In this document: positions 2,429-36,336 of the stretch, one piece after another
How the letters are laid out: each line of letters opens with the position of its first letter
Numbering within the stretch: position 1 is the first letter of the stretch
NCBI GenBank assembly: GCA_000473305.1
Contig: CP006772.1
Span: forward strand, 2,363,805-2,427,804
Direction of reading: 5' to 3'
DNA from: Bacteroidales bacterium CF
GTDB lineage: Bacteria > Bacteroidota > Bacteroidia > Bacteroidales > UBA932
DNA length: 64,000 nucleotides
The notes under the pieces: model-generated
Database searches by the model: none
Told to the model about the DNA's origin: nothing
What the model saw: only the letters and a program-made list of their open reading frames with translations
Position numbers and translations under genes: made by a program

Positions 2429-2558
2429 CAAAAAATATCCCAAGCAAAGGTTTCGCAAGCATTTCATTATCTGCCATGAACACTTTTATTCATTCGATAT
2501 CTGTGAAGGGATGCCGAATCAGGCCTATACTCTGTAAGAAAAACGAAGCAGGAGCAGT

Positions 2559-2790
2559 TGCAGACATAAAGTCGAAAAGACCTTGGTTTTTTAGTGAAAA
2601 TATAAAAATCGGCAATTTATTCTCTGATGCCGCTCATAAGTTAGTGTAGAAATAACAAATCAGGGCATTCAGCCGGAGGGAGTTTACGACTGAGGATGGA
2701 CAGCCCTGAGACGTTATTTCTACACAGTATAAAAAGCGGCTATCAAGAATAAATTAAGAAAAACCAGCGTCTTTGAGACTTATGTCTGCA
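2559..2790. repeat. Nested palindromic element, copy 1 (composite, about 230 bases)
   Basis: Three shells of inverted repeat enclose each other. The outer arms are GCAGACATAA...TTGGTTTTT at 2560-2591 and its imperfect complement at 2758-2790. The middle arms are GCCGCT (2629-2634) and AGCGGC (2735-2740). Inside is a perfect 13-base stem GTGTAGAAATAAC (2644-2656) with GTTATTTCTACAC (2713-2725), then CAGGGC/GCCCTG (2661-2666, 2703-2708) around an apex containing TCAGCCGGAGGGAG and CGACTGAGGATGGA. Flanks 2470-2558 and 2791-2870 carry fragments of the same family (for example CCTGATCCGGTATACC). The whole 538-base gap 2361-2898 holds only this and the abiE operator; I see no gene in it. Confidence 0.8.
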
Positions 2791-2898
2791 TCGCGACATC
2801 GAATGGACTGCCCTGATCCGGTATACCTCTGCCTTATGTTTAAGGGCTCTGTTTAGCAATGACAATTGACTTAATCAGCTTGAGGATTAATTAAATGA

Positions 2899-3777
2899 TT
2901 AGAAAATAGCTGGTTTATTTGCAGTTTTCTTTTTGTGCTGATCAAGCAAACATTGAAAATCATAATCGGCTTTGATTTTATCCAGTATAGTCGTTACTAC
3001 CTTATAAATTTCTTTATTTCTTGAATAATCTGCCGGGCAAACAAAATTCACTCTGTTTTCGGCAATTAGATTTTCTGATCGTTGTTTCTTATTGGAATTT
3101 CTGGGCTGATATACTGCTATGGAATGTCCTCCCATCTCCCTAACCAATTTCATACAAGGGACATCAGTTTCTCCATCACCGAAATATACCATTCGGCTAA
3201 AGGGAATTCTTCTGTCTTCTTTTTTAGTATATTTATTAACACCTATGGAATCGGCAACACTTTCTATCCCTTTATTTATTTTAAAAAGGAATTGAGTTTT
3301 TGTTGTGTAGTTAACTGCAACGCCGGGCCAATAGGCCTTACCGTCTACATCGTATAAATATGAACAAGCGAAAATTTTTTTAAATTCTCTGGCAATTGGT
3401 GTGCCTTCAATAATTTCAGCTAAACCGGAAGAATTGATATAGTGTTCAATAGTTATTCCGACATTTTGAGCATATTCATTTATCAACCCAAACCACTCCT
3501 CAACACCTTTAAACAACTTGACATCTTTTCCAAATTCTTGAAACTGTTCTCTTTTCAAAGAGATTTTCTCTGAAATTGCTTTCTGCATCATTAAATACAT
3601 ATATGTCAGAATCTGATCAGCATCATTATCATTGGATAATTTACTGTTTTCAGCCCAAAACTCTTTTGGATTTTTCTTCACAGCTTTGATAAATCCAAAT
3701 TCCTGCATATTCCCGGGGGAAAGCGTACCATCAAAATCGTAGATTAGTGCGACGATTATATTACTTTTCTTACTCAT
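2899..3777 (-). CDS. HAD-superfamily hydrolase (putative phosphatase)
   Basis: A 292-residue cytosolic protein with HAD motif I DFDGTLSP (nucleophile Asp14, general acid/base Asp16) and motif IV FGDGETDVPC, the Mg2+-binding acidic pair. Between them is a large helical cap domain (about residues 25-150) followed by the Rossmann-like core, as in phosphoserine-phosphatase-like HAD enzymes. The substrate cannot be told. The start lies 10 bases after the stop of a small membrane protein on the same strand, so the two form a likely pair. Its 3' end and flank were the source of the degraded duplicate at about 7.62-7.93 kb. Confidence 0.75.
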   Translation of the reverse strand: MSKKSNIIVALIYDFDGTLSPGNMQEFGFIKAVKKNPKEFWAENSKLSNDNDADQILTYMYLMMQKAISEKISLKREQFQEFGKDVKLFKGVEEWFGLINEYAQNVGITIEHYINSSGLAEIIEGTPIAREFKKIFACSYLYDVDGKAYWPGVAVNYTTKTQFLFKINKGIESVADSIGVNKYTKKEDRRIPFSRMVYFGDGETDVPCMKLVREMGGHSIAVYQPRNSNKKQRSENLIAENRVNFVCPADYSRNKEIYKVVTTILDKIKADYDFQCLLDQHKKKTANKPAIF

Positions 3778-3787
3778 ACTTTTGCAT

Positions 3788-4108
3788 CTATGGATTGGAA
3801 GACTTTGCTGTGTTCAACACTCTCTTGTTCCAGAAAAAATATGACAAAGAAAGCGCTAAGGCTATTGCTCCGGGAATTAACAATACTTCTCCGAGTGGAA
3901 AAATTTCCGCATTCCAGTAAAGAATCAATATTGCAGTTTTATCACCCCCATATACCGCACTTACAAGAAAAAGCCACCAAGGCCAGGCAAGAAAGAGAAC
4001 CGAAGTCGTAAAACGTTGTGGAAAATCCGGATTATTTTCCGATTTGACATTATGTATTGCAAGATACACGATGGCAAAATAAATTAAAACAATATAAAAC
4101 GCTATCAT
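3788..4108 (-). CDS. Small membrane protein of unknown function
   Basis: A 106-residue protein with three predicted membrane segments: the N-terminal IAFYIVLIYFAIVYLAI, a central VLFLAWPWWLFLVSAVYG, and VLLIPGAIALALSLSYFFW near the C-terminus. I do not recognise a family. It precedes the HAD phosphatase by 10 bases and is probably co-transcribed with it. The 3' third of the gene (3786-3902) is nearly duplicated at 7801-7925, where no functional copy remains. No signal for its role can be read from the sequence. Confidence 0.6.
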   Translation of the reverse strand: MIAFYIVLIYFAIVYLAIHNVKSENNPDFPQRFTTSVLFLAWPWWLFLVSAVYGGDKTAILILYWNAEIFPLGEVLLIPGAIALALSLSYFFWNKRVLNTAKSSNP

Positions 4109-4195: not shown

Positions 4196-4325
4196 GCCGC
4201 TATCAAATTAGTGGAAAAAACTGAATCAGGGCATTTCTGCCGCAAATGGGATTTAGGAGCGAATGAAGACATAAGACCGAAAATGACTAAATAGAACTTA
4301 GTTTTTTAGTGATTATCTGCGGCCG
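4196..4325. repeat. Partial nested-palindrome fragment, left half plus outer-arm piece
   Basis: GCCGCT followed by ATCAAATTAGTGGAAAAA, CAGGGCATTTCTGCCG and GGAGCGAATGAAGACATAA reproduces the left half of the family element joined directly to an outer-arm piece (AGACATAAGACCGAAAA, then GTTTTTTAGTGAT). The matching right half is missing, so this copy is a broken or recombined one. It abuts the intact copy at 4322-4434. Together they fill the 353-base gap 4109-4461, which has no gene. Confidence 0.6.
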
Positions 4326-4434
4326 CTTACAAATTAATTGAGATATACCGGATCAGGGCAATTTTCAGCCGGAGCGAATGAAATGAGTGAGGATGGACTG
4401 CCCTTAGACGGTATATCTCAATTATAAAAGCGGC
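4322..4434. repeat. Nested palindromic element, copy 2
   Basis: GCCGCT (4322-4327) and AGCGGC (4429-4434) bound a perfect 15-base stem, AATTGAGATATACCG (4336-4350) with CGGTATATCTCAATT (4409-4423). Inside are AGGGC/GCCCT and the conserved apex TCAGCCGGAGCGAATG ... GAGGATGGAC. The stem sequence differs from copy 1 but is still perfectly paired, while the apex is conserved. It lies just downstream of the hipT stop codon on the minus strand. Confidence 0.82.
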
Positions 4435-4461
4435 TAAGCGGCCATCGAGAAGGAATCCATG

Positions 4462-6293: not shown

Positions 6294-7382
6294 ATGATAA
6301 AGCAAATGCATCTATTCACTAATACTATTATTTTTTTATTGCTTAATTTATCGCTTTATGCTCAGAATAATGACATTACCTCATTAATTAACAAAGCAAA
6401 TTCAGGTGACGCCAATGCCCAGAATGAATTAGGAGTTTGCTATGAAACAGGAAAGAGTGTTAATAAAAATTTTTACGAAGCAATAAAATGGTATCGAAAA
6501 GCTGCGGAACAGGGCCATGTCGCTGCACAATTTAATTTAGGGCTTTGTTATGGCAATGGACAGGGAGTGGAAAAAAACGATGCCATGGCTGTGTATTGGT
6601 ACAGAAAATCTGCGGAACAAGGATATGTTGATGCGCAGTACAATTTAGCGGTTCGCTATTATATTGGACAAGGTGTAAATCAAAACTATTCAGAAGCTGT
6701 TAATTGGTACAGAAAAGCTGCTGAGCAAGGGGATGCTCCGGCGAAATATAACTTGGGATTTTGCTATTATTATGGTTATGGAGTGGACAAAGACATTACC
6801 GAGGCTGTTAATTGGTATAAGCAAGCGGCAGACCAAGGATATGCAAGGGCTCAGATTGATTTAGGTATTTGTTATTGCAATGGAGATGGAGTGAAACAGG
6901 ATTTTACCGAGGCTGCTAAATTGTTTAGAAAAGTTGCAGAGCAAGGAGATGCCAGGGCTCAGTACAATTTGGGACTTTGTTATGACAATGGCCGGGGAGT
7001 TGAAAAAAACGATGCCATGACTATATATTGGTATAGCAAAGCGGCTGAACAGGGATTTGCTGATGCTCAATATAATTTAGGTGTCCGCTATTATTTTGGT
7101 CAAGGTGTAAATCAGAATTACTCCGAGGCTGTGAAGTTCTTCATGAAAGCTGCTGACCAGGGGTATGCCATGGCACAGTTCAACCTGGGGACTTGCTTCT
7201 ATAACGGTTTTGGATTAAAGCAGGATTATACTGAGGCCGCCAACTGGTACAAGAAAGCGGCAGAACAAGGATTTGACAAAGCTCAGTATTGTTTAGCGCT
7301 TTGTTATAGCTATGGACACGGTGTGGAAAAGGACGATGTCATGGCTTTATACTGGTACAAAAAGGCTACTGAAAACAGGTAG
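6294..7382 (+). CDS. Secreted Sel1-repeat (SLR) protein
   Basis: A 362-residue protein with a signal peptide (LFTNTIIFLLLNLSLYAQ) and nine consecutive 36-residue Sel1-like repeats of the form AQYNLGxCYxxGxGVxxNxxEAxxWYxKAAEQG, from about residue 40 to the end. Sel1 repeats form alpha-solenoids for protein-protein contacts. ATG at 6294 and a second Met at codon 5 are both possible starts. Repeats 2-3 closely match repeats 6-7 (GVEKNDAM then GVNQNYSEAV), so the array grew by duplicating a four-repeat block. It is alone on the plus strand inside the accessory island; binding partner unknown. Confidence 0.82.
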   Translation: MIKQMHLFTNTIIFLLLNLSLYAQNNDITSLINKANSGDANAQNELGVCYETGKSVNKNFYEAIKWYRKAAEQGHVAAQFNLGLCYGNGQGVEKNDAMAVYWYRKSAEQGYVDAQYNLAVRYYIGQGVNQNYSEAVNWYRKAAEQGDAPAKYNLGFCYYYGYGVDKDITEAVNWYKQAADQGYARAQIDLGICYCNGDGVKQDFTEAAKLFRKVAEQGDARAQYNLGLCYDNGRGVEKNDAMTIYWYSKAAEQGFADAQYNLGVRYYFGQGVNQNYSEAVKFFMKAADQGYAMAQFNLGTCFYNGFGLKQDYTEAANWYKKAAEQGFDKAQYCLALCYSYGHGVEKDDVMALYWYKKATENR

Positions 7383-7417: not shown

Positions 7418-7580
7418 AGACATAAGCCTCAAAGACACTGGTTTTTCTTAACGTGATTTGATTTCGTGTTTTTCCGGGGCTCCGAAACTCCTCCCTTCCG
7501 GTCGTCAGACATTCTCGCCCTTTTTCGGAAAAACACTCATAAAATCACTAAAAAACCAAGGTCTTTTCGGCCTTATGTCT
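7418..7580. repeat. Nested palindromic element, copy 3 (divergent inner stem)
   Basis: The outer arms AGACATAAG...CACTGGTTTTT (7418-7447) and AAAAAACCAAGGTCTTTT...CTTATGTCT (7550-7580) match the outer arms of copy 1. The inner stem is unrelated to copy 1 but perfect: GTGTTTTTCCG (7466-7476) with CGGAAAAACAC (7526-7536). The apex, read in reverse, contains CCGGAAGGGAGGAGTTTCGG, recalling CCGGAGGGAGTTT of copy 1. This lies directly after the Sel1 gene. Confidence 0.75.
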
Positions 7581-7589
7581 TCAATCGCT

Positions 7590-7660
7590 CCTTAAACCGG
7601 CTTCAACAGAAAATTTCCTGATTCGGTATATCTCTACTATTTGTAAGCGGCTGTTTAGCA
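7590..7660. repeat. Half copy of the nested palindrome, inverted
   Basis: Read on the minus strand this gives GCCGCTTACAAATAGTAGAG, ATATACCGAATCAGG and a GGAGCGATTGA end, matching the left half of copy 2. It has no right half. It borders the decayed duplicate, and the same half element borders the source locus (2813-2850), so it was probably part of the duplicated segment. Confidence 0.55.
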
Positions 7661-7925
7661 ATGGCAATTGACTTAATCAGCTTGCGGATTAATTTAGTGA
7701 TTTGAAAATAGCTGGTTAATTAACAGTTTTCATTTTGTGTTGATCCAGCAAGCATTGAAAATCAAAATCGGCAACGCTTTCTATCTCTTTGTCTATTTAA
7801 ATTTGTATCTATGGATTGGCAGACCTTGCTGTGTTCAACACTCTCTTGTTCCAGAAAAAATATGACAAAGAAAGCGCTAAGGCTATTGCTCCTGGAATTA
7901 ACAATACCTCTCCGAGTGGAAAGAT
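7618..7925 (-). pseudogene. Decayed duplicate of the HAD phosphatase / small membrane protein locus
   Basis: Bases 7653-7768 match 2860-2968 (HAD stop region and downstream flank), then 7769-7790 match 3257-3280 (HAD interior), then 7797-7925 match 3781-3902 (3' third of the membrane gene). Two internal deletions remove most of the phosphatase and the segment between the genes. The first deletion joins at AATCGGC, a 7-base repeat present at both ends in the source. The last 125 bases are about 95% identical to the source, so the event is fairly recent. No open frame of either gene survives. Confidence 0.78.
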
Positions 7926-8014
7926 ACTGGATATCTGGGCGTTTCAGCCGGCGGGAGAGCAACGACTGAGGATGGACAGCCCTGAAACAGTATTTTCCAC
8001 AGTAAAAAAGCGGC
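7916..8014. repeat. Nested palindromic element, copy 4 (left arm lost)
   Basis: The stem GTGGAAAGATACTG (7916-7929) pairs with CAGTATTTTCCAC (7988-8000) with one bulge. The apex is TTTCAGCCGGCGGGAGAGCA ... GACTGAGGATGGACAGCCC and the right border is AGCGGC (8009-8014). The left GCCGCT arm is missing; the element instead fuses at GTGGAAA to the decayed membrane-protein copy, which in the source also reads GAGTGGAAA. Confidence 0.75.
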
Positions 8015-8023
8015 TGAAGTGAA

Positions 8024-8445: not shown

Positions 8446-9474
8446 TTAGACCTCTGTCTTAAATTCTCTCAAGAATCTTATGTCGTTTTCAAAATAGTGT
8501 CTCAAATCCTTGACCTGCCACTTCAGCATAGCGATACGTTCAACTCCCATACCGAATGCAAATCCGGAATAGATCTTGCTGTCGATACCCGAAGCTTCAA
8601 GTACATTAGGATCAACCATTCCGCAGCCCATTATCTCGAGCCATCCGGTACCCTTGCAGACATTACAACCCTTTCCCTTGCAAATATTGCAGCTTACATC
8701 AACTTCCGCGCTCGGCTCGGTAAATGGGAAATACGAAGGCCTTAGCCTTATCTGAGCATTCTCTCCGAACATCTCCCTTGCAAAGAGCAGGACAGCCTGT
8801 TTCAAATCTGCAAAAGAGACATTTTTGTCAATATAGAGCCCCTCTACCTGGTGGAATATACAGTGCGCGCGGGCTGATATGGCCTCATTTCTGAAAACTC
8901 TTCCCGGGCAAACCACTCTTATTGGGGGCTGTACCTTTTCCATTGTACGTACCTGTACGGAACTTGTATGAGTACGAAGTAAAATAGGATTGTTCCCGGT
9001 TGTTACAAAGAATGTATCCTGCATATCTCTTGCCGGATGCTCGGGAGGGAAATTAAGAGCTCCGAATACATGCCAGTCATCCTCAATCTCAGGGCCATCG
9101 GCAATGGCATATCCGAGTTTTGTAAATATGGAGAGTATCTCATTTCTTGTTATTGAGATGGGGTGTCTTGAACCGAATTCAAAGAGGTTTCCCGGTTTTG
9201 TGAGGTCATAGGCGGACTCCTTCGTCTCAGGATTCTCCTCAAGGACAGACTTCAACTCTTCGATCTTCTGTGCAGCGGCAGTTTTAAGTTTATTTAGCAC
9301 CTGCCCCAGTTCTCTCTTCTGCTCAGGAAGCACCTCCCTGAAGTCATCAAAAAGCTGTGTTATTTTACCCTTTTTCCCAAGCAGCCTTACACGGATCTCT
9401 TCGATCTCCTGCTCACTTTTAGCCTTTAATTCTTCAACCTCAGAAAGAAGTTGGTCTATTTTCTCTCTCATCAT
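8446..9474 (-). CDS. pheS: Phenylalanine--tRNA ligase alpha subunit
   Basis: About 342 residues from ATG at 9474 (MMREKIDQLL), the family's usual start. The frame is open 30 codons further upstream but that extension is not part of PheS and runs into the preceding gene. An N-terminal coiled coil (tRNA-binding arm) is followed by the class II catalytic core: motif 2 FRNEAISARAHCIFHQVEGL and motif 3 FAFGMGVERIAMLKW. An insertion CNICKGKGCNVC near residue 265 has four cysteines that probably bind zinc, as in many anaerobe PheS proteins. It charges tRNA-Phe with PheT, which is not in the window. Last gene of a minus-strand run from yraN. Confidence 0.95.
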   Translation of the reverse strand: MMREKIDQLLSEVEELKAKSEQEIEEIRVRLLGKKGKITQLFDDFREVLPEQKRELGQVLNKLKTAAAQKIEELKSVLEENPETKESAYDLTKPGNLFEFGSRHPISITRNEILSIFTKLGYAIADGPEIEDDWHVFGALNFPPEHPARDMQDTFFVTTGNNPILLRTHTSSVQVRTMEKVQPPIRVVCPGRVFRNEAISARAHCIFHQVEGLYIDKNVSFADLKQAVLLFAREMFGENAQIRLRPSYFPFTEPSAEVDVSCNICKGKGCNVCKGTGWLEIMGCGMVDPNVLEASGIDSKIYSGFAFGMGVERIAMLKWQVKDLRHYFENDIRFLREFKTEV

Positions 9475-9524: not shown

Positions 9525-10793
9525 TTACAATATCGACTCTCTCCTGAGAGGCATTGTCATACATCTTGCACCGCCGCCGCCTCGCGGGAGTTCAGAGCCG
9601 TCTATTGTCACGACACATCTCTTGTAATTTCCCAAATCCTTCTTACCTGAAATAACCTCCCTTGCTGTAATAATATCAAAACCGCTCTTTTGCATCTCGT
9701 TTAAAGTGTGGATATTCCTAGCATAGGACATAACCTTGCCCGGAGCAAATGCGAAAAAGTTTGCACCGCTGTGCCACTGCTCCCTCTCCTGATTCCACTC
9801 GTCTGCACTTCCCCCGCATGTCACAGGTTCAAGGTCCATCCCAAGTTTTTTAAGGACAGATAAGATATTGTTCACCGATTTTATTCTTGTAACCTTTCCG
9901 CCCTCTATTATGATATGCACAGTCTGATACTGGTTTTCGTTAAGGATCAATGGTTCAAATACCATTGCCCTGTCAACGTCAAGCATTGTGAAAACCATAT
10001 CGAGATGTATGAATGATTCAGGAGAACTTGGAAGTTGCTGAACTATAATATGTCTCTTTTCCGGCCCTGAAGACTTGCACAGTCTGTTAATGAGCATATC
10101 TATACCCTGACTGCTTGTTCTCATACCATTGCCTATCAGAAGGATATCCTCCCTGGCAACCAATACATCCCCTCCCTCCATATATATTTCGTTGTTTCCC
10201 GGCTGGAAGTCGTGAGCATTTATCAGATCACAATCAAAATAGCGCTTATTCCTGAATATAGCCTCATTGATTAGAGACTCCCTCATCCTGACCTTGCTCG
10301 CCATTCTGCAAACCAGCACCTTATTGCCTAATGAGACAGATGCGTCCCTCGTGAAGTAATAGTTATAAAGAGGGAAAAGTGCATAGTAGTCATCTTTGAG
10401 ATAGGCCGTCAAAGTATTTATTCTTGCCGGAAGCCCCTCAATCAGGACTGTTGCCAGAGCCTTTGAAGGCATATCCATAAGATATTCGAAATAATCGGTC
10501 ACCTCCTCTGTAACACAGATTTTTCCAATTAGTGCCTCTCTGTCTGTATGATTGTCAAGCAGATTTGTAAGAAGATCCTTTATCTGATATGTTTTACACA
10601 CCTTCGAAAGTACACCTGAAACCTGCTCGTACTCTTTCTGTGCTATTGACAGGTTTAGAATATCACTGTACAACGCTCTCTGTGCGTTTCTTGGAGTCAT
10701 GTTCTCCACCTCCGCACCGGGAGAATGCAGAAGAACCGCCTCAAGTTTCCCTATTTCAGATTGGACGTTTATAGATATCGATCCGTTAGCCAT
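9525..10793 (-). CDS. arcA: Arginine deiminase
   Basis: A 422-residue guanidino-group-modifying enzyme of the ArcA type, hydrolysing arginine to citrulline and ammonia. Motifs: SPGAEVENMTP near the N-terminus, FTRDASVSLGN, MEGGDVLVA, HLDMVFTMLD (catalytic His and Asp) and the C-terminal GGGGARCMTMPLRR with the catalytic Cys. The length is close to the usual 400-410. No ornithine carbamoyltransferase or carbamate kinase is nearby; instead a CtlX-type hydrolase and RocD at 29-31 kb could take citrulline onward. It sits 10 bases after manC on the same strand. Confidence 0.92.
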   Translation of the reverse strand: MANGSISINVQSEIGKLEAVLLHSPGAEVENMTPRNAQRALYSDILNLSIAQKEYEQVSGVLSKVCKTYQIKDLLTNLLDNHTDREALIGKICVTEEVTDYFEYLMDMPSKALATVLIEGLPARINTLTAYLKDDYYALFPLYNYYFTRDASVSLGNKVLVCRMASKVRMRESLINEAIFRNKRYFDCDLINAHDFQPGNNEIYMEGGDVLVAREDILLIGNGMRTSSQGIDMLINRLCKSSGPEKRHIIVQQLPSSPESFIHLDMVFTMLDVDRAMVFEPLILNENQYQTVHIIIEGGKVTRIKSVNNILSVLKKLGMDLEPVTCGGSADEWNQEREQWHSGANFFAFAPGKVMSYARNIHTLNEMQKSGFDIITAREVISGKKDLGNYKRCVVTIDGSELPRGGGGARCMTMPLRRESIL

Positions 10794-15880: not shown

Positions 15881-15888
15881 CATCCGTA

Positions 15889-15945
15889 TTGTGGAGGGAT
15901 TTGACTGCTTGCAACCACTTGAAAAAATGCTAAAATAGAGTCTTC
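15889..15945 (+). promoter_or_regulatory. SAM-II riboswitch upstream of metK
   Basis: The segment has P1 GTGG (15891-15894) pairing with CCAC (15915-15918), a loop with GATTTGACTGCTTGCAA, and downstream TTGAAAAAATGCTAAAAT. These line up with the SAM-II pattern: GATTTAAC, TTGCAA directly before the 3' strand of P1, and GCTAAAA forming the pseudoknot. It sits at the expected 5' end of the transcript and upstream of the gene that makes the ligand, S-adenosylmethionine. The distance to the start codon (about 75 bases) is longer than in classic examples. A covariance-model search would settle it. Confidence 0.82.
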
Positions 15946-34835: not shown

Positions 34836-34935
34836 GCCGCTTTTTACTGTGTAGAAATATCGTCTCAGGGCTGTCCATCCTCAGTCGTTGCTCTCCCTCC
34901 GGCTGAAATGCCCTGATCCGGTATTTTTCCACTTA
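34836..34935. repeat. Nested palindromic element, copy 5 (inverted, outside the island)
   Basis: Read on the minus strand it has GTGGAAAAATACCG pairing imperfectly with CGATATTTCTACAC, CAGGGC... GCCCTG, and an apex TTTCAGCCGGAGGGAGAGCA ... CGACTGAGGATGGAC nearly identical to copy 4. GCCGC at 34836-34840 marks one border; the other border is cut at the stop codon of the next gene. It occupies the gap between the tRNA terminator and a convergent gene. Confidence 0.8.
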
Positions 34936-36336
34936 TTAGAAAAGAATTGGAAACCCGAATGTCACTATTGTTGCCCAGATGATATAAACAGGGAGAAATC
35001 CTGAGATGGCCCTGCCGACTGTTTCAGGTTCTCCTTTTCCGGCTGCAGCTTTAAAAAGTTGAACAGAGACTATCAGGAGGTTGGCAAGGATTAAAAGGTT
35101 AGCACCCAATACAGCCGCCCTGTTCGGACTTATCCCCCACTCCGAGATCCTGAACAATATTGCTGACAAGGCTATTCCGTTTACTATGACAGTAACTGCC
35201 GATAATAAAAATAGAATCCATATCTGAAGACTTTTCTTTGTAACAGAAGTATCGCCTGCAACCGAGAAGAAAATCACAGCCATTACACCTACAAGCAAAG
35301 CATTGAATATCATGAGAAAATCCCTGTCATTGTATGGATTTTTTTCCGAATAAATAATTGCCACTAAATATACCAGCAACATAATCAAAACGAGAGGGCT
35401 GAAGATCCTGGCAATCACCGGAGTTATCCGGCCTACAAGATGAGGATTCTTCTCAATGAGATATGTGGCAATTACAGGTATTGCGGATAGTGCAACAATC
35501 CCAATGTAACTCATATAGAAATTCTCAATTTTCAGACCTAAAAGCTCGAACAGACCAATTGTCACTCCGCTCAATACCCCACCGGCTATTAATAATAGTC
35601 CTGACATAATCCCAAGATCTCCGTTAAATTTCAAATAGGCCAGCCTTTTCTCATGGAGGCTCTTTATGCTGCCGACAAATGCAAACCCAAGAACAGCCCA
35701 TAATAACAACAGAAGATGAATGCAAGAGAGTGTGGTGACATCGCTTTCAACGTCAGGCAGCAGATTTATAAATATTGCACACAATAAAAAAACCAGACCG
35801 ATAATTGATATGTTTAGCCTTGAGACTTTGTTCTTCCAGGCAAAATATCCTGCCAATACAGGAAAGACTATAAATCCGACATTTCTTACATAAAAGGCCT
35901 CCTCGGCCAGGCCAAGAATTGCCGGCAGCTTAGCAATTATAGCAGCCACTATAGAGGCTACTACTACAACAAGAAGCCCCTCACTTTTCACTATTCTTTC
36001 TTCACTTTTCACTATCCCCTCATCACTCTTCACTATCCCCTCTTCACTTTTCACTATCCCCTCCTCACTTTTCACTATTCTCTCATCACTCTTCACTATC
36101 CCCTCTTCACTTTTCACTTTACTCTTATCACTTATCACTATCCCCTCATCACTCAGCCTCTCATACCAGAACTCTGCAAGAGGGTTGTTGCTCAAATCAG
36201 GATAAACCTGAAGGAACTCCTTTTTGAATTGGACTCTGTTGCCTCTGTATAACATCTCAAGATACCCGGCATCATTCTGATGCTCAAGTATCTCCTTTCT
36301 AATGTTTGCGTTTAATTGTATGTCTGCTCTTTCCAT
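34936..36336 (-). CDS. Polytopic membrane protein with a heptad-repeat linker
   Basis: A 466-residue protein. Residues 1-65 are soluble (HQNDAGYLEMLYRGNRVQFK ... PLAEFWYERLSDEG). Then follow about eight copies of a seven-residue repeat, KSEEGIV / KSDERIV, up to about residue 120, encoded by a 21-base tandem repeat. The remainder holds about ten hydrophobic segments (LLVVVVASIVAAIIAKLPAI onward). I do not recognise the family with certainty. It lies 65 bases downstream of the winged-helix regulator gene and shares an operator-like site with it. Function unknown; the highly charged linker suggests a flexible tether between a soluble domain and the membrane. Confidence 0.7.
   Translation of the reverse strand: MERADIQLNANIRKEILEHQNDAGYLEMLYRGNRVQFKKEFLQVYPDLSNNPLAEFWYERLSDEGIVISDKSKVKSEEGIVKSDERIVKSEEGIVKSEEGIVKSDEGIVKSEERIVKSEGLLVVVVASIVAAIIAKLPAILGLAEEAFYVRNVGFIVFPVLAGYFAWKNKVSRLNISIIGLVFLLCAIFINLLPDVESDVTTLSCIHLLLLLWAVLGFAFVGSIKSLHEKRLAYLKFNGDLGIMSGLLLIAGGVLSGVTIGLFELLGLKIENFYMSYIGIVALSAIPVIATYLIEKNPHLVGRITPVIARIFSPLVLIMLLVYLVAIIYSEKNPYNDRDFLMIFNALLVGVMAVIFFSVAGDTSVTKKSLQIWILFLLSAVTVIVNGIALSAILFRISEWGISPNRAAVLGANLLILANLLIVSVQLFKAAAGKGEPETVGRAISGFLPVYIIWATIVTFGFPILF
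35976..36155. repeat. Coding 21-base tandem repeat (heptapeptide KSEEGIV)
   Basis: About eight units of 21 bases, consensus on the plus strand TTCACTATCCCCTCTTCAC plus a variable CT, run in frame through the membrane-protein gene. Units differ at a few fixed positions (E/D and G/R), so it is a mature but still recombination-prone array. Confidence 0.85.

Follow-up and report, generated by a model that had tools for sequence, protein, structure and literature searches.

A genus-wide family of intergenic hairpins in Bacteroidales with a conserved non-canonical tip on lineage-specific stems

Element X, a nested hairpin with four copies in the window (the whole 64,000-nt stretch of DNA analysed here), belongs to a family that is real and genus-wide but lacks two defining features of the tagged, RAYT-linked REP families. 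We place at about an even chance the reading that these are miniature non-coding mobile hairpins of REP/REPIN-like kind in which the conserved part has shifted from the foot and stem to the tip. As the best explanation it rests on dispersed copies, covariation in both stem and tip, lineage-specific stems, intergenic and unoriented placement, and differences between species in the presence and interior of copies. No description of these elements was found in the open literature searched.

RESULTS AND DISCUSSION

Copies of element X in the window

From the outside inwards, X consists of a copy-specific outer stem, a foot of GCCGCT/AGCGGC, about 7–10 unpaired nt, a variable stem of about 21 pairs, a GGGC/GCCC clamp and the tip, the hairpin being about 116 nt long. 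Two models were used: R1 for the full element and R2 for the tip alone, the latter restricted to Bacteroidales and built from 23 tip sequences of several lineages. R1 finds four copies in the window, which comes from genome G000 (2.66 Mb on a single contig), and each of their tips is also found by R2. The features, in window positions, are as follows.

2551..2597, + strand: left Y arm (outer, around copy 1), 89% over 47 nt to the Y5 piece
2628..2743, + strand: X hairpin copy 1, complete (foot, stem, GGGC/GCCC clamp, tip), R1 112.5 bits
2664..2704, + strand: conserved tip of copy 1, R2 47.5 bits
2754..2797, + strand: right Y arm of copy 1, 86% over 44 nt
2803-2830, + strand: right-hand X remnant after the right Y arm of copy 1, matching X_L020 73-100
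4224..4314, + strand: X left-arm remnant joined to a left Y arm, 74% to L018 query 125-208
4321..4437, + strand: X hairpin copy 2, complete, R1 123 bits
4360-4401: tip of copy 2, R2 53.7 bits
7418..7651, - strand: truncated long form without X tip (Y arms around a Z core, plus half an X arm)
7905..8017, + strand: X hairpin copy 3, R1 58.5 bits
7939-7980: tip of copy 3, R2 48.4 bits
34833..34948, - strand: X hairpin copy 4, R1 76.4 bits
34870-34911: tip of copy 4, R2 57.8 bits

The R1 scores of copies 1 and 2 (112.5 and 123 bits) are partly by construction, because both copies are rows (L010 and L025) of the alignment behind R1, referred to as A2, which holds 29 X copies from G000 and its near relative G006; neither copy 3 nor copy 4 (58.5 and 76.4 bits) is a row of it. 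The original prediction had counted five copies. Four of its sites hold up, that at 2559-2790 being an X copy inside Y arms (2551-2597 and 2754-2797), but the fifth, 7418-7580, has no R2 match and is part of a truncated reverse-strand relative with another core, Z (match 7556-7441, 77%). This relative aligns at 83.6% over 238 columns to query 96-324 of L018 (L018:1265-1493), and the inner fold of 7418-7580 is weak (z -1.8, with 10 of 200 shuffles as good). Compared with shuffles, three of the four core stretches fold far better (z -7.9 for copy 1 at 2626-2740, then -7.8 and -5.2) and 7916-8014 moderately so (z -3.5). The predicted GCCGCT/AGCGGC border is absent to the left of 7905-8017, where copy 3 adjoins a duplicated stretch (7802-7925), and at one end of 34836-34935, where a border of copy 4 is lost at the end of the ORF at 34936-36336.

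Two repeats are found in this part of the window, 7651-7772 being a copy of 2849-2970 (89%) and 7802-7925 a copy of 3781-3904 (95%), so that the 7418-8017 cluster looks like a duplicated, partly deleted copy of 2559-3904. Elsewhere the window contains a SAM-II riboswitch (15885-15943, 64.9 bits) and a 362-aa ORF with 108-nt repeats (6294-7382), which we take to be Sel1-like.

Copy number and genomic placement

The genome-wide search suggested by the original prediction succeeds. Pattern GACTGAGGATGGACNGCCC, with up to 3 mismatches, has 34 matches in G000, 17 on each strand, against none for the reversed control; G006 has 22 matches at up to 2 mismatches, where the reversed control gives 0 in G006 and 1 in all 60 genomes. 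Stems remain paired and the tip is kept across the genus, and neither of the findings that had been named in advance as evidence against a family, unpaired stems or a few copies without a conserved apex, was obtained.

The copies lie on a 2.66-Mb, chromosome-sized contig and not in a plasmid leading region. None of the 30 copies examined (of the 34 matches) is contained in an ORF of at least 120 aa by a simple ORF test, and heuristic gene calls place 17 of them between tandem, 9 between convergent and 4 between divergent genes. The expectation that copies lie at the 3' ends of genes is thus borne out as regards intergenic placement, but a 3' end is not always involved. Within tandem gene pairs, 9 copies are in sense and 8 in antisense orientation.

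A bias between leading and lagging strands was not significant (13 versus 20 of 33, p = 0.30), assuming that dnaA marks the origin; 33 of the 34 matches entered this test, one doubtful place with 3 mismatches being dropped. The origin itself is uncertain because dnaA (1.63 Mb) and GC skew (switch near 1.3 Mb) disagree. Distance of the copies to dnaA, taken over 23 clusters, gave p = 0.15. The region of G000 from 1.06 to 1.93 Mb, within which dnaA lies, has no pattern matches.

Covariation and the structure of the tip

Stems that vary between copies while remaining paired were the core of the original prediction, and this is confirmed in A2, where 90.8% of cells are paired and two-sided change occurs at 22 of 41 pairs. 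Two-sided cells number 123 against a shuffled mean of 43.5, and none of 500 shuffles scored as high on any of five measures; in slid controls, with partners moved by 1–3 columns, pairing drops to 34–44% and only 3–10 pairs have two-sided change. Many X stems are near perfect, and some copies have decayed: L044/L050, at the locus of window copy 4, have lost their pairing. In the inner stem, read on the strand with the purine tip, G.T cells outnumber A.C cells by 26 to 11 (24 versus 9 distinct events, p = 0.014); this count covers 33 of 37 copies, with L040, L049, L013 and L044 dropped as foreign, truncated or broken.

The tip is non-canonical, with G.A pairs and a bulged G. As read, it runs T.G, C-G, A-T, G.A, C-G, C-G, bulged G, G.A, A.G, G.U, S-S, G.A, A.G, R-Y, Y-R and a triloop. 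Among the copies of A2, 17 have G-C and 12 have C-G at the S-S pair, and the R-Y and Y-R pairs switch too, while across lineages one tip pair is A-T in 14, G-C in 6 and C-G in 3 of 23 sequences. The G.A beside this three-type pair, one A.G and three C-G pairs are invariant in 24 of 24 tip sequences. The tip alignment has 21 two-sided cells against 5.4 after shuffling, a value that none of 500 shuffles reached; the counts of pairs changed on both sides (4 versus 2.9 shuffled, 75 of 500 as high) and of pair types (156 of 500 as high) do not rise above shuffles. A strict plan of GA, two base pairs, triloop and GA fits 34 of 68 distinct tips, and 15 of these 34 have a GNA triloop, a class of terminal loop described in PMC4686876 as extraordinarily stable in DNA.

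Nesting, a second core and differences between loci

A second core, Z, about 118 nt long, has matches of at least 100 nt in 15 of 25 genus genomes, at 72–92% identity, in the list as we read it. G000 and G006 have similar outer Y arms around both Z and X, and Y/Z is found within the X tip as well. One locus carries X with a short tip in G006 and, in G000, the same X arms enclosing a Y/Z interior of about 190 nt; apart from two letters at the far left, the arms and the flanks shown do not differ, and beyond these flanks the genomes are 78% alike further left and 98% alike to the right. Another locus has Z in G006 and X in G000, and at L175 a stretch of about 240 nt (Z plus arms) is present in G006 and absent from the G000 site. 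Such differences represent turnover, whether by insertion, deletion or exchange, and could be losses. As to the marks of insertion sequences and MITEs, a target-site duplication was not established, and the outer arms vary from lineage to lineage and from locus to locus. In the Z copies of G000 and G006 (L172-L178, L235) each locus has its own paired outer stem, of about 20 bp, around a core 79–96% identical to the consensus.

The idea that the tip of Z is a circularly permuted X tip was dropped; the Z consensus fold has the same terminal plan, C-GA-CC-GAA-GG-GA-G. The order GAGGA...CCGAA in Z is still peculiar, and at that point the consensus fold, taken over 27 copies, is loose.

These observations bear on whether the paired changes reflect selection for structure, as originally proposed. 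The covariation stands, but selection need not be its sole cause, as template switching from arm to arm could also produce covarying stems. We consider it possible, though on the unlikely side, that complementarity is maintained by mutation, through such switching (quasi-palindrome correction) or through conversion between copies. Loci that differ by entire interiors, the numerous near-perfect stems and the locus-specific outer stems beside a conserved core in the Z copies would all be consistent with this. However, correction between arms would neither preserve the non-complementary G.A and A.G positions of the tip, two of which are constant in all 24 sequences and among which the three-type pair sits, nor favour G.T over A.C.

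Distribution and stems across the genus

R2 finds the tip in 18 of 25 genus genomes, the richest having 41, 38 and 33 matches, and R1 is positive in 7 of 149 family genomes, four of them with weak scores only (25.7–36.5 bits). Across 393 genomes of the order R2 found only G000, in a less sensitive run that scored 16 candidates per genome (150 each in the 25-genome run) and included only two known genus members. Viral contigs searched with two patterns gave 0 stretches and phages had no match to the full element; the tip alone has 13 weak matches in phages, one of them in microvirus RP_34, inside an annotated gene.

Beneath the shared tip the stems are lineage-specific, and several lineages set the tip on unrelated stem sequence. 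G021, G003 and G011 have a common stem near CATTGCCAACTAATTGATGAGGGC and a common outer arm near GGCGGCGAGTTG. By eye, another stem set with further nested stems is seen in G015, G008, G009 and G016 and a third in G010, G024, G022 and G012, with three forms in G017. Comparison of 24-nt left arms among 16 representatives agrees at 18–22 of 24 positions within G021/G003/G011, 14–17 within G015/G008/G009, 20 for G024/G012 and 3–14 otherwise. Stems vary widely within a lineage too, given that the representatives of G000 and G006, which belong to one family, share only 6 of 24 left-arm positions. For 9 of the 16 representatives none of 200 shuffles equals the pairing of the arms; in G011, G015, G009 and G001 pairing exceeds the shuffled mean and not the shuffled maximum, and G010, G022 and G012 yielded no usable arm alignment, G022 having been read on the wrong strand. 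Alignment A3 was left out because it mixed both strands. In G010, G024 and G022, tips also occur at several places in direct arrays with a period of 97–100 nt.

Relation to REP elements and Y1 transposases

Like REP, REPIN and BIME elements served by RAYT (TnpA-REP), X is dispersed, extragenic, palindromic and lineage-specific, and by computation it folds as a hairpin of one strand. Unlike these elements, of 20–40 bp with a conserved foot and stem, X is a nested hairpin of about 110–190 nt that is conserved at the tip, and it has neither the GT[AG]G tag nor a consistent CGTC tag. GT[AG]G occurs within 8 nt of the foot in 0 of 29 copies, in agreement with the earlier view that this is not a simple REP; CGTC, TGTC or CCTC occurs there in 4 of 29. 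According to PMC3733652 (Di Nocera et al. 2013), REP units can form part of longer palindromes, and the stem/loop-modular GTAG families have short, mostly GC-bounded loops under a constant GTAG tag; X differs from those families in sharing a non-canonical tip of about 30 nt.

A linked RAYT/Y1 gene, which the original prediction had proposed looking for, was not found. Y1 transposase genes (PF01797) are present in 14 of 14 genomes searched, and neither the tip nor the probed stems of five lineages occurred within 1.5 kb on either side of any of 30 Y1 loci (30 of 41 matches). Nor did any recurring transposase-like family lie beside the copies among the best 25 groups of 421 neighbouring ORFs, the widest group being presumably elongation factor G. 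G000 itself has two Y1 genes (L031 and L032, at about 1.714 and 0.426 Mb), each framed by its own palindromic repeats (GTGGCACTGATTTTTCTAA; CACTTTGGCGCAGTTTGAGGTA). Repeats of these types also adjoin some X copies (e.g. L009 and L035). The arrangement resembles the TIRtron, the TIR-flanked tyrosine transposases described in PMC3733652, both around the two Y1 genes and beside some copies; the TIRtron-like repeats have sequences of their own, unlike X.

It is unlikely, in our estimate, that X is a true REP family mobilised in trans by a Y1 (RAYT/TIRYT) transposase of the genome. The ubiquity of Y1 genes and the REP-like character of these extragenic, dispersed, lineage-specific palindromes would be in keeping with such an origin, as would a Bacteroidetes RAYT subclass with atypical flanking structures, described in PMC6006769, but the absence of the element from the 30 Y1 loci, the different repeats at both G000 Y1 genes and the missing tag argue against it.

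Plasmid hairpins with a similar tip core

Hairpins on Arsenophonus nasoniae plasmids are identical to the tip over 26 nt (E 2e-3 with a 118-nt query, 1e-4 with a 34-nt query) and score 33.8 and 32.0 bits with R2; the tip alone also matches, more weakly, plasmids of Stenotrophomonas, Microbacterium, Sphingobium, Sinorhizobium, Xanthomonas and others. At the other plasmid places R2 scores run from 25.3 down to 11.8 bits, stray matches in the same searches reaching 12.6–13.5, and at E up to 5 there is no match in L318, L319, L320 or the F region L321. The likeness of the plasmid places to the tip is selected, since the tip itself served as the query that found them.

The match lies outside annotated genes in 7 of the first 8 plasmid regions, and in 5 of the 8 (L302, L303, L305, L307, L309) the predicted DNA fold sets it atop a long hairpin with another stem; Rfam gave no match at E up to 1 at the hairpin places in L302-L309. 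The 50 nt around the plasmid tip occur at 389 places in 277 of 72,556 plasmid records, with hosts in Pseudomonadota and Actinomycetota and one Bacillota plasmid. In 15 aligned plasmid places, GTGGAATACCG-S-A and AGG[AC]TATGCCGCGAAAG are retained with the exception of one letter. Covariation is present by cells (9 two-sided cells versus 2.9 shuffled), and the number of pairs with two-sided change is 3 versus 1.8 shuffled, 89 of 500 shuffles being as high.

In 11 of 15 regions chosen from the 277 records, the closest annotated gene to the left of the hairpin begins 50–424 nt from it and faces it, although the 15 regions are not independent, L310, L312 and L317 holding one hairpin and L311 and L314 being nearly alike. 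Among these 11 genes are four DNA methyltransferases, one that is ArdC-like and two mobV genes, and in two further regions ssb follows; L302, L309, L312 and L315 do not fit the arrangement. The leading-region position of the plasmid relatives is taken from gene content only.

Across L302-L320, plasmids of three phyla carry hairpins of the form GTGGAATACCG...AGG[AC]TATGCCGCGAAAG whose stems are unrelated; often these hairpins lie upstream of genes for a methyltransferase or an ArdC-like protein, or of ssb or mob genes. Individual hairpin places include L310:5990-6054(+), 9351-9420(-) and 10671-10740(-), and L321:5010-5059(-), which corresponds to about 54015 of the F plasmid record. Some copies overlap annotated hypothetical ORFs. 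The F copy has two letters changed and lies about 108 nt before a DNA methylase gene, inside such an ORF, and a 136-nt probe taken from a copy on an E. coli plasmid has matches in 4,666 E. coli records, likewise over an annotated hypothetical protein.

In their presumed action as hairpins in single-stranded DNA, and in the frequent position of the plasmid relatives before entry-type genes, the elements resemble the Frpo/ssi single-strand promoters, as described in PMC7736820, PMC11541004 and PMC9849209; chromosomal X elements, being dispersed repeats, are unlike them. An identification of the F copy as Frpo1 or Frpo2 was not supported, the known F single-strand promoters given in PMC9849209 being unmatched and the motif not being present in the F stretch upstream of ssb where Frpo2 is reported. 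No -10/-35 (sigma-70) boxes were recognised by eye in the plasmid hairpin sequences.

One could propose that a plasmid-type entry or priming hairpin was recruited to the chromosome, with a host factor (RNA polymerase, primase/PriA or an SSB partner) acting at the tip, and that it spread via second-strand synthesis or transcription start on a single-stranded intermediate. We find this doubtful. The identity with the Arsenophonus plasmids, the number of plasmid records that have the tip and the facing methyltransferase, ArdC-like and mobV genes speak for it; against it, the plasmid and chromosomal families differ outside the core, the remaining R2 scores sink to the stray level or vanish (L318-L321), the 15 regions hold near-copies, inspection by eye revealed no sigma-70 boxes, and the F copy falls within an annotated ORF and is neither Frpo1 nor Frpo2.

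Equally speculative is the notion that the tip core, A(G)CCG[GC]A / GAGGAT, would be a phylum-spanning 'address' in single-stranded DNA, read by a widely conserved putative factor. Such an address would comprise C-G pairs, a bulged or mismatched A, a bulged G and S.A and A.G pairs, followed by a variable mini-hairpin, a make-up that we put forward with the same reserve. It would, with no greater assurance, be used by conjugative and mobilisable plasmids of Pseudomonadota, Actinomycetota and Bacillota, on hairpins with unrelated stems that often precede their entry genes, and have become, in one Bacteroidales genus, the fixed part of a self-spreading chromosomal hairpin with freely changing stems. 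The lack of an R2 match in L318-L321 and the F copy within an annotated ORF weaken this proposal. The likeness between plasmid and chromosomal tips may be homology or convergence, and is the boldest and least settled part of this work; a similar tip core on plasmids of other phyla is nevertheless a hint that something may read the tip in single-stranded DNA.

The folded molecule

The original prediction had left the choice between a DNA cruciform and RNA, and the evidence narrows it. The excess of G.T over A.C on the strand with the purine tip is better explained by a single folded strand than by a two-strand cruciform, and the random orientation to neighbouring genes (9 sense versus 8 antisense) argues against an element of the 3'-UTR or mRNA. 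Together with the GNA loops, these observations make single-stranded DNA the molecule that we would prefer. A role for X as a hairpin in transcripts, be it as 3'-UTR stabiliser, as terminator or as small RNA, seems improbable, for although low folding energies, wobble pairs outnumbering A.C and covariation would suit it, orientation is random, stems differ between lineages and no Rfam family falls on the elements at gathering score. Below that score, 8 loci gave only matches of the kind of eukaryotic microRNA precursors, the best being MIR5998 with E 8e-7 and 44.9 bits where the cut-off is 180.

A model for the hairpin family

For the preferred reading, a mobile hairpin conserved at its tip, we envisage that when a locus becomes single-stranded, at a replication fork or during repair or transfer, the purine-rich strand would fold into a long hairpin in which a stem of nearly any sequence could lift the non-canonical tip. 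A candidate protein would recognise this tip, and the element would then be copied into other intergenic sites, moving as single-stranded DNA. Hairpins may also swap or accept interiors at the tip, which would give rise to the nested forms. The direction of the locus changes and the identity of any enzyme are parts of the model that we infer.

The usual basis for classing REP-like repeats is their foot tag and their stem. A REP-like repeat with a conserved non-canonical tip and lineage-specific stems separates scaffold from recognition site, and its many natural variants of tip and stem are a resource for finding what reads single-stranded DNA. If the plasmid link proves to be homology, many plasmids, F among them, would have in their entry region a hairpin signal that has been little described.
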